From assembly GCA_021647785.1 (NCBI GenBank), contig JAKIUC010000009.1, positions 1 to 64,000 on the forward strand: a stretch of DNA of 64,000 nucleotides. The letters run 5' to 3'. Made by a program: the position numbers and the translations under genes. Numbering within the stretch: position 1 is the first letter of the stretch; each line of letters begins with the position of its first letter. Under the pieces are notes generated by a model. It saw nothing but the letters and a program-made list of their open reading frames with translations, searched no databases and was not told the DNA's origin. Below are positions 470-57,030 of this stretch, piece by piece. The DNA comes from Melioribacteraceae bacterium (GTDB taxonomy: Bacteria > Bacteroidota > Ignavibacteria > Ignavibacteriales > Melioribacteraceae).

Positions 470-507
470 AGCCCAATCCCCTATAAAAACGGGTTGGGCT
501 TTTTTTG
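470..507 (+). terminator. Rho-independent terminator after tRNA-Leu
   Basis: AGCCCAATCCC (470-480) pairs with GGGTTGGGCT (491-500), with one bulged base, and is followed by a run of seven T. It lies 13 bases after the tRNA and before the family 1 repeat fragment. Confidence 0.85.
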
Positions 508-608
508 ATACCGACAATGAAATGTTAGTCCCGTAGGGAATGCTTACAGCATAAGAACCCTTTTGGGGTTTTCGGAATTTTCCTGCAAGGTTGGAATGTC
601 GTGTATAT
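508..608 (+). repeat. partial family 1 modular palindromic repeat
   Basis: The element opens with ATACCGACAATGAA and closes with AATGTCGTGTATAT, the outer arms of the family 1 element seen better at 2815, 18722 and 56920. Between them are smaller hairpin units, including TCCCGTAGGGA at 529-539 and TTTTCGGAA near 570. The second module (ACAACCAAATTG...) is absent, so this is a half element or a degraded copy. Confidence 0.5.
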
Positions 609-2814: not shown

Positions 2815-2934
2815 GTATACACAACCCAAATTGGTTTTGAAAACCTCTGTAAGAGTCTCACAGACAATTTAGTTGTTATATACCGACAACTTACGACAAT
2901 GAAATTCCGAAAACTACTTCATTGTCGGTATATT
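2815..2934 (-). repeat. family 1 modular palindromic repeat, reverse orientation
   Basis: Read on the minus strand it opens with TATACCGACAATGAA, contains TTTTCGGAAT, then TGTCGGTATATAACAACTAAAT, and closes with CCAATTTGGGTTGTGTATA. Two nested palindromes are present: an outer ATACCGACAAT / ATTGTCGGTAT pair and an ACAAC.AAATT / AATTTGGGTTGT pair. The hairpin in the second module is TGTGAGACTCTTACAGA, where the copies at 18722 and 56920 have CCCGCTAAGCGGG or CCTGCTAAGCGGG. It occupies the clpP-recG gap. Confidence 0.75.
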
Positions 2935-18721: not shown

Positions 18722-18892
18722 TATACCGACAATGAATTGTCTGTAAGACTCTCCCGAAGTGATTTCTACGGAGCTTCGGAGGAATTCCAAAAGCGAATAT
18801 TGTACTTCAGCAAGTTCAGTAACCATCGGTATATAACAACCAAATTGTCCCGCTAAGCGGGACCAATTTGGGTTGTGCATATTTTAAAATAT
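18722..18892 (+). repeat. family 1 modular palindromic repeat, longest copy
   Basis: The element opens with TATACCGACAATGAA and has a middle with smaller hairpins (TGTCTGTAAGACTCTC; CTACGGAGCTTCGG). It continues with GGAATTCCAAAAGCGAATATTG, an arm ATCGGTATATAACAACCAAATT, the core hairpin GTCCCGC-TAA-GCGGGAC (18847-18863), and CCAATTTGGGTTGT. It ends in ATATTTTAAAATAT. Compared with 56920-57030 it has an extra insert of about 60 bases. It fills most of the gap before lon. Confidence 0.75.
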
Positions 18893-51575: not shown

Positions 51576-53822
51576 TTATTTTATAAGTAACATTTTCCTA
51601 CTTTGCAAAAGTCCAGCACTTGTAAGAGTATATATATAAATTCCTGAAGCCAGTTTTGATGCATTAAATACAACTTCGTAAGCACCAGGTTTTTGTATTT
51701 CATTAACAAGAGTTGCAACCACCTGACCAAGCAAATTATAAACTTTTAATGTTACATTTTGCGGTCCCGCAGTAGCGGGACGGCGTGTTTCTACTGGTAT
51801 TGAATATTTAATTATTGTGCTAGGGTTAAAAGGGTTTGGATAGTTTGCTTCAAGTGAAAATTTGCTTACTAAATTATCGTCAACTAATTTAACATCAACT
51901 GTTGGAACAGCTCTATATATTTCACTACCTCCAGAAGCTACCCATATATATCCGTTATTATCAACCATAATACCATAATTTGTAGTAGCCGTAACAATAT
52001 CCAAATCAATAATATCTTCCCAAGTATATCCGCCATCATACGTAACAAAAAGAAACTTACTGCCAGTTAAATACCAGGTTAATTCATCAACAATTGCAAT
52101 ACTTTCAATTTTTTTTGATAAACCAGCAACTTCGATATATTCCCAAGTCTTACCGCCATCATTAGATAATATAAGTTTTTCACCTGCTGCAAGACCAAAG
52201 CTATTATTTAGAAATTCAATTTCGTAGAAATCATGCTCTCCCGGTGGCATATTGCTTGGAGTAATTTTTGTCCAACTTATTCCACCATCAGTTGTATATG
52301 CCAAAGCGGATTCATCTCCGGCAACAACGCCATTGTTTTCATCAAAGAAATGGAGGGAGTTTAATTCGTTTATTAAATTTGGGTCTGCAATTAGTGAACT
52401 CCAGTTTATCCCGCCATCTGTAGTTTTGTAAAACGCACTTACGTCAGGATTTCCTTTCCCTACAACAAAACCAACATCTTCGTTTATAAATAGTACTCCG
52501 TAATTATTTATAGTAGTTGCCATTGTGTCTTTCATAATCTGTGTCCAAGTTTCTCCACCATCACTGGTCTTTGATACAGTCCTATTTTTTTGGGCAGCGT
52601 ATCCAATATTTTCATTAAGAAAAAAAAGGTCTTCCACAGTTGGAGAGACATTTTTATCTGAAATGTATGTGCTTTCCCAGGACTCTCCATTATCAATTGA
52701 TTTAAGAAATAGACCGTTAAACCCTGCTGCTATTATTGTATTATCACCAATTTTATCAATTTCATAAAGAGTGGAGGAAGGGATTTCAGTAATTAATTTC
52801 CAACTCTCCCCAGCATCTTCCGATATCGCTATTCCACCATTAGAACCAACAATACATATTTTGTCATTTATCAAACTTATTGATTTAGCTTGGAAACCCA
52901 TTGGAAAGTTGATCTCATTCCAATTTAATCCACCATCTATTGTTTTATATGCAACCCCACCCTTATAACTTGAACCACCAACTGCAATACCATAGAGTTC
53001 GTCATTAAATGCAATACTATACAAATTAACATATAATCTGTTATCTTCTACTTGAGTCTCATACGTCCAGTTTGCACCACCATCTGTTGAACGTAATGTA
53101 TAAGTAGGCTGCAAACCGGACGAACTTGCCCCCCAACCAGTAGCAAACGCAACTGTTTCGTTAATCATTACAACTGCATTCAAATCAGTACGAGTATAAC
53201 CATAAGGAATTCCCGTTGGAGTTGGGGCTTTAGTCCAAGCTAATCCATCTGTTGTGTAATAAATTGCAAAATTTCCTGACCTTCCGCCAACACAAACTCC
53301 ACGTTCAGCAGAATAAAAACTCATAGCTTTTAAATTAGTTGCAACTTCTGTTGCTTGAATAGTCCAAGTGGTTCCTCCATCAGTAGTGTGTGAAATTTCA
53401 CCTCCAGTAGAAGTTCCGGATAGTACCCATCCAGTGTTTGCATCAGTAAAATATAGTGAATAAATTTTTCCGCCAACTGACTCGAACATTACTTCAATCC
53501 AAGTTGCACCACCATCTATACTTTTTAGAATTAGATCGTTAGCTCCCCCAGCATAGCCAATATTTTCATCAACAAAAAAAATGCTATACATTGATGCAAT
53601 AACTGGTAAAGTATCTATTGGCTCTTCCCAAGTATAACCACCATCAGTTGTTCTTAAAATTGTACCAGACTGACCGGCAATCCATCCAAGATTTTCATTT
53701 ATGAAGAAGATATCACTTAATGGATTATATGTTGCCGAAGTAACTTTTTTCCATCTGCTTGCTCCATAAAGTGAAATTGAAAAAAGCAGTATCACTATAA
53801 TTAATATTTTTTTAATCATCAA
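51576..53822 (-). CDS. T9SS cargo protein with BNR/Ycf48-like repeats
   Basis: Signal peptide at residues 1-20. The body is made of repeated blades of about 45 residues with TTDGGYTWE / STDGGANWT and FFINENLGWIAGQ phrases, a BNR or Ycf48-like beta-propeller. The sorting domain from about residue 670 reads NYPNPFNPSTIIKYSIP, LKVYNLLGQVVATLV and ends RKMLLIK. Between the SIP and the VTLKVYN strands there is an extra segment ETRRPATAGPQ, encoded by a palindrome with the same arms as the core hairpin of the family 1 repeats. The gene is 54 bases from the previous T9SS protein gene. Confidence 0.82.
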   Translation of the reverse strand: MMIKKILIIVILLFSISLYGASRWKKVTSATYNPLSDIFFINENLGWIAGQSGTILRTTDGGYTWEEPIDTLPVIASMYSIFFVDENIGYAGGANDLILKSIDGGATWIEVMFESVGGKIYSLYFTDANTGWVLSGTSTGGEISHTTDGGTTWTIQATEVATNLKAMSFYSAERGVCVGGRSGNFAIYYTTDGLAWTKAPTPTGIPYGYTRTDLNAVVMINETVAFATGWGASSSGLQPTYTLRSTDGGANWTYETQVEDNRLYVNLYSIAFNDELYGIAVGGSSYKGGVAYKTIDGGLNWNEINFPMGFQAKSISLINDKICIVGSNGGIAISEDAGESWKLITEIPSSTLYEIDKIGDNTIIAAGFNGLFLKSIDNGESWESTYISDKNVSPTVEDLFFLNENIGYAAQKNRTVSKTSDGGETWTQIMKDTMATTINNYGVLFINEDVGFVVGKGNPDVSAFYKTTDGGINWSSLIADPNLINELNSLHFFDENNGVVAGDESALAYTTDGGISWTKITPSNMPPGEHDFYEIEFLNNSFGLAAGEKLILSNDGGKTWEYIEVAGLSKKIESIAIVDELTWYLTGSKFLFVTYDGGYTWEDIIDLDIVTATTNYGIMVDNNGYIWVASGGSEIYRAVPTVDVKLVDDNLVSKFSLEANYPNPFNPSTIIKYSIPVETRRPATAGPQNVTLKVYNLLGQVVATLVNEIQKPGAYEVVFNASKLASGIYIYTLTSAGLLQSRKMLLIK
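51764..51781 (-). repeat. REP-like palindrome inside a coding sequence
   Basis: GTCCCGC-AGTA-GCGGGAC lies in frame in the sorting domain of the T9SS protein. The two arms are identical to the core hairpin GTCCCGC-TAA-GCGGGAC of the intergenic element at 18847-18863. The segment adds about ten residues that the neighbouring sorting domain lacks. Confidence 0.75.
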
Positions 53823-56919: not shown

Positions 56920-57030
56920 TATACCGACAATGAATAGGTTTTCGGAATTCCAAAAGCGAATATTGTCGGTATATAACAACCAAATTGTCCTGCTAAGCGG
57001 GACCAATTTGGGTTGTATATATTTTAAAAT
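56920..57030 (+). repeat. family 1 modular palindromic repeat, compact copy
   Basis: It runs TATACCGACAATGAA, TTTTCGGAATTCC, AAAAGCGAATATTGTCGG, TATATAACAACCAAATTGTC, core CCTGCTAAGCGGGA, then CCAATTTGGGTTGT and TATATATTTTAAAAT. Outer and inner palindromes are both complete. Its end contains the TAA stop (57024-57026) of the TonB receptor gene on the other strand. Confidence 0.8.

Follow-up and report, generated by a model that had tools for sequence, protein, structure and literature searches.

A modular MITE-like repeat with nested hairpin units in a Melioribacteraceae genome

Copies in the window

The window, the whole stretch of 64,000 nucleotides analyzed here, is contig 12 of the 4.25-Mb, 99-contig draft genome of a Melioribacteraceae bacterium. 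It is low in GC and encodes type IX sorting domains ('YPNPFNPST'), features which by themselves indicate a probable member of the Ignavibacteria or close kin. The four copies of a palindromic repeat that an initial annotation had placed at 508, 2815 (reverse), 18722 and 56920 were all found in the sequence, and occupy 507-607 (+), 2816-2932 (-), 18722-18881 (+) and 56920-57021 (+). The last is a full-length copy of 102 bp in which both outer arms are exact and the inserts u2 and u4 (see below) are missing.

The 18722 copy, which lies between divergent genes, had been given a span of 18722-18892; its right boundary is 18881. On the plus strand it starts with the L end, TATACCGACAATGAATTG, and its TA terminus (18722-18739), of which the first 11 bp are common to all 50 full-length copies of the genome (with at most one mismatch, as set by the search design). 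A composite hairpin insert of u2 type follows (18740-18781, 42 bp, TCTG...GGAG), which replaces GTTTTCG as judged against the 56920, C26:10398 and C15:21921 copies. The type-A core GAATTCCAAAAGCGAATATTGT (18782-18803), also present in the 56920 copy, is succeeded by the 23-bp u4 insert ACTTCAGCAAGTTCAGTAACCAT (18804-18826), located at TTGT^CGG in the right arm of module 1 by comparison of filled and empty sites. The remainder of this arm (CGGTATA) and the left arm of module 2 (TATAACAACCAAATTG) have TATA in common (18827-18847), and the copy is completed by the u1 GC hairpin TCCCGCTAAGCGGGA (18848-18862) and the R end CCAATTTGGGTTGTGCATA with its TA terminus (18863-18881). The left arm and the module-2 arms are exact, and the right arm is interrupted, reading ATTGT[ACTTCAGCAAGTTCAGTAACCAT]CGGTATA. 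The changing inserts first described in these copies are real, and their letters were quoted correctly (CCCGCTAAGCGGG, CCTGCTAAGCGGG, TGTGAGACTCTTACAGA); the extra insert of 60 bases at 18722, however, measures 58 bp and is made up of two distinct inserts, the 42-bp unit in place of GTTTTCG (net 35) and the 23-bp unit.

The copy at 2816-2932 (-) is full-length (117 bp) and carries u2 within module 2, at 2845-2864. Its left arm is exact, its right arm reads GTTGTCGGTATA and its module-2 arm ACAACTAAATTG. The copy at 507-607 (+), in the interval between a tRNA-Leu and a trigger-factor-like gene, is diverged: an L end (GATACCGACAAT) is joined to other inner hairpins and to a right end ...ATGTCGTGTATA. 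It is the one copy without module 2, the second module being present in three copies, as annotated. Two further candidates, C12:10352 and C16:168383, were rejected as chance arm matches within genes.

Copy number, ends and anatomy

The left-end pattern has 95 matches in the whole genome and the reversed control 7, corresponding to about 90 copies; the right-end pattern has 64 matches and its control 1. There are 56 exact occurrences of the 12-mer TATACCGACAAT in 1.50 Mb, where about 0.35 would be expected by chance. The possibility that the genome might hold no further copies, considered with the initial annotation, is therefore set aside.

Individual copies were read in 1.87 of the 4.25 Mb, which contain 50 full-length copies running from L to R (30-171 bp, median 122). 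Their ends are constant, L being TATACCGACAATGAA.. and R ..CAATTTGTGTTGTGTATA. TA stands at the start of 50/50 copies and at the end of 49/50, a regularity partly imposed by the search pattern. The inverted repeat formed by L and R is perfect over TATAC/GTATA and weak beyond, which is short for a MITE; module 1 by itself forms a perfect 12-bp pair. The canonical order is TATACCGACAATGAAATG - [slot A] - GTTTTCGG-core - ATTGTCGGTATA - TAACAACAAAATTG - [slot B] - CAATTTGTGTTGTGTATA. The description of the repeat as two modules thus stands in a sharper form, as palindromes placed end to end with a common TATA (TATA-mod1-TATA-mod2-TATA).

Copy C38:36532 (30 bp) is composed of the L and R ends only, and C29:25182 (55 bp) of both ends plus one hairpin. 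Because some copies keep only these ends, L and R define the mobile element and the interior is dispensable. Diverged copies with module 1 alone occur at C83:161, C25:41218 and C28:32660. None of the copies read has a transposase gene inside it. Their mean GC content is 36.7%, vs. 32.8% for the part of the genome read, and the predicted fold is strong (z -4.65).

Genomic location and empty sites

The copies are intergenic: 45 of 50 lie between ORFs, though ORFs account for 87% of bases (in a proxy map of ORFs of at least 100 aa). The arrangement of the flanking genes is unremarkable (31 tandem, 8 convergent and 4 divergent).

The family is restricted to one species as far as it was followed. 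A search of 57 relatives, including four members of the same genus, found no copy; u2 (up to 2 mismatches) gave 0 matches in 38 relatives vs. 58 in this genome; and the ends, u1 and u2 are all absent from 610 kb of congener G004. Neither the roughly 85,000 species genomes searched nor IMG/VR contain an exact match to the patterns, the junction pattern included; a search of this type misses diverged kin. Within these searches the sequence belongs to no named family, as had been supposed, and its kind, a bacterial MITE or mosaic repeat, is already known.

The comparison of empty sites proposed with the initial annotation could be made at five intergenic loci that lack the element in G004. The cleanest filled/empty alignment is that of suhB-lon, where a single TA is left. 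Excision scores summed over the five loci are 491 for retention of TATA, 485 for TA and 471 for none, in alignments to a diverged congener, and keeping 2-4 bp outscores keeping none in 4/5 loci. No target duplication longer than TATA is found in the 50 full-length copies. Duplication of a TA (or TATA) target is likely. The copy at C60:9841 had been read as inserted, with a single TA, at the midpoint of a perfect palindrome; other copies show it to be a chimera of two palindrome families, and it is therefore left out of the duplication evidence.

Small hairpin units and module shuffling

The inner hairpin units measure 15-23 bases and are also present in unrelated repeats. They are designated u1 (TCCCGCnnnGCGGGA), u2 (TCTGTGAGACTCTTACAGAG), u4 (ACTTCAACAAGTTCAGCAACCAT) and u22 (TCCTGTAAGGATGCnnnnnnCA). 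Filled and empty versions were seen for u2 at five different hairpin sites: slot A, GAAATG^GTTTTCGG (14 filled, 21 empty); the core, GTTTTCG^GAATT (4 filled, 32 empty); slot B, AAATTG^GTTT (3 filled, 22 empty); and, in two hosts unrelated to this family, the AATCCCRTCGG^GATT hairpin in the array of repeats around an IS200-like gene on C52 (2 filled, 4 empty) and CCCAAAGG^GATTCC (filled and empty). A G precedes u2 in every clear copy and u2 itself ends in G, so that an insertion can equally be described as a 19-bp palindrome that has duplicated a single G. Among the copies read, u4 occupies TTGT^CGG in 11 and is missing from this site in 27; it carries further inserts in three copies. The 22-bp unit u22 is found within u2, in either arm. 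The filled and empty u2 sites in unrelated hosts, together with the nesting of units, suggest that small hairpins move into larger ones and that recombination then shuffles them.

Scoring of 45 copies by core type, the contents of slots A and B and the u4 insert gave 27 module combinations. The presence or absence of u2 in slot A and of u4 occurs in all four states (22/9/8/6), a pattern that needs recombination unless units were inserted or lost repeatedly. The content of slot B varies between CCCGCnnnGCGGG, u2, a GAAGCTTC hairpin and a hairpin of the form GTTTyC..GAAAACC; the AAATTG/CAATTT arms around the slot are kept throughout, and the pairing of the module-2 arms is preserved across different versions. 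The original proposal of a modular mobile element with swapped hairpin units agrees with the 27 combinations, the four-gamete pattern, the filled and empty sites and the absence from relatives. Mobility is inferred here from distribution rather than from direct sight of movement.

Comparison with known repeats

Bacterial MITEs are under about 200 bp, non-coding and A+T-rich, with TA termini, terminal inverted repeats and target-site duplication (PMC2229807). The element fits a bacterial MITE such as RUP, Correia or ERIC in its size, its gene-free copies and its TA termini. RUP of the pneumococcus, Correia/NEMIS and ERIC are likewise intergenic, present in about 100 copies and rich in strong hairpins, and some Correia copies carry an internal insert that others lack, as here (PMC2229807). 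The element differs from RUP, Correia and ERIC in its unrelated sequence, very short imperfect inverted repeat and highly modular interior. It also differs in its partner: RUP, as an IS630-derived MITE, has a partner IS630 with matching ends, whereas no match to the IS630 DDE_3 transposase was found in this genome, although IS copies may have been collapsed in its 99-contig assembly. No multi-copy IS is evident in 1.5 Mb, and pairs of L and R spaced up to 5 kb apart do not enclose a gene, as those of an autonomous copy would.

BOX of Streptococcus is a composite too, with constant ends, variable inner modules and repeats within repeats (PMC3049150). However, BOX varies mainly in the number of tandem boxB modules (PMC3049150), whereas here different hairpins fill different fixed slots and, unlike in BOX, also occur beyond the L/R family. 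In Anabaena variabilis, GTAG-15 REP dimers lie in a TATAGGA..TCCTATA palindrome (PMC3733652), again as small hairpins in a larger TA-ended one. In contrast to GTAG/CGTC REPs, the units described here lack the tag, comprise several kinds per host and are nested at multiple levels. The GC clusters of yeast mitochondria (PMC4478555) and the palindromes of Volvox organelles (PMC2670323) are short mobile hairpins that merge, shuffle and form palindromes within palindromes as in this genome, but they reside in eukaryote organelle genomes rather than in a bacterial chromosome with a MITE-like host. The design of a hairpin inside a hairpin is better known in yeast and algal organelle DNA than in bacteria. 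Cyanobacterial very small mobile repeats (SDRs) are reportedly mobile units of about 20-27 bp, a description attributed to Elhai et al. 2008; we know of no transposase for them. Judged by the location of the copies, mostly between ORFs, the in-frame gene insertion typical of Rickettsia palindromic elements is not a trait of this family.

Possible mechanism of spread

The arrangement is probably best explained by two tiers of non-autonomous mobile DNA, a MITE-like L/R element and small hairpin units landing within it. In the first tier, the repeat would insert in AT-rich DNA between genes, with a probable duplication of TA, and would have spread within one species by means of a transposase acting in trans. 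In the second, the hairpin units of 15-23 bp may insert at fixed hairpin positions, in each other and in unrelated repeats, and their reassortment may involve recombination or gene conversion between copies. A HUH enzyme (IS200-like) is a candidate for the active movement that these units may undergo.

About five Y1_Tnp loci exist in the genome. The IS200-like Y1 (TnpA) gene of C52 (L128:1405-1857) is embedded among arrayed AATCCCRTCGGGATT hairpins; three u2 copies surround it, two of which clearly sit within a hairpin of this type. On C95 (L129), a frameshifted Y1 transposase gene (about 1501-1910) breaks off in an L end of the L/R family. As a link to unit movement, both loci are suggestive only. 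IS200/IS605 elements insert after a fixed base and generate no longer duplication, which the insertion of the units resembles.

These features may also be read in terms of REP-like hairpins whose movement depends on Y1 (HUH) transposases, the whole element being a cluster similar to BIMEs or REPINs, a reading that we consider unlikely. REPs are marked by a GTAG or CGTC tag at one palindrome end and flank a RAYT gene (PMC3733652). This tag is missing from u1, u2, u4, L and R and from the flanks, so the units are not classed as REPs. Moreover, no units were found near the RAYT-like gene on C40 or the TnpA gene on C24, and the TA termini and paired L/R ends indicate a DDE-type MITE for the first tier.

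Another unlikely alternative is that the small units are immobile parts of an old family, in which ectopic recombination, slippage and gene conversion between copies created all of the module variety and deletions created the short forms. The module combinations do look recombinant, and C60:9761 is a chimera joining the R end of this family to another palindrome family. Confinement of u4 to one site in the family could likewise reflect a single old insertion spread by recombination. Immobility does not account well for u2, which has empty counterparts at five or more non-homologous sites, in hairpins some of which are otherwise dissimilar, nor for u22 in either arm of u2. A function as terminators, attenuators or mRNA stabilizers, with variety tolerated since only structure counts, would agree with the strong fold, the intergenic placement and the module-2 arms that still pair in differing versions, but is very improbable given the lack of clear preference in gene arrangement, the 18722 copy between divergent genes, an Rfam search without a match and the absence of the family from all relatives, even where the flanking genes persist.

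The two-tier scheme can be extended to a bacterial chromosome in which self-nesting hairpins of 19-23 bp insert actively, and without longer target duplication, at a fixed stem or loop position (after G for u2), with MITEs as vehicles and through a process that works on hairpins in single-stranded DNA. This extension is tentative and rather doubtful; if true, it would provide a bacterial counterpart of the GC clusters of yeast mitochondria. The family bears on how DNA units of about 20 bp spread, be they REPs, cyanobacterial SDRs or organelle GC clusters. One genome contains several kinds of unit, each with filled and empty versions of defined sites and with a readable order of nesting, and its congeners are wholly without them. 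The insertion rule (position, duplication and hairpin dependence) thereby becomes directly testable with a few more strains. The family is also a young, species-limited MITE family in which the birth and shuffling of such elements can be studied.

Other palindromes

Nested inner hairpins also occur in a second family of palindromes, which are 53-257 bp long and have the ends GGCTAAGTTCT / AGAACTTAGCC. Its sites include C16:34782, 103614 and 163411, C27:13857, C60:47919 and C32:26536, among others, and it is this family that joins the L/R family in the chimera at C60:9761. The motif CTTCGACAAGCTCAG, similar to u4, is found at C60:42825 and C28:19898, in frame in a sorting-domain gene and elsewhere; it is presumably common in many environmental genomes. 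Within the window, the gene at 51576-53822 (-), which encodes a type IX sorting domain, contains an in-frame GC hairpin, TCCCGCTACTGCGGGA, at about 51752-51778. The apparent extra residues TRRPATAGP result from this hairpin, which suggests that a palindrome has inserted into the coding sequence.
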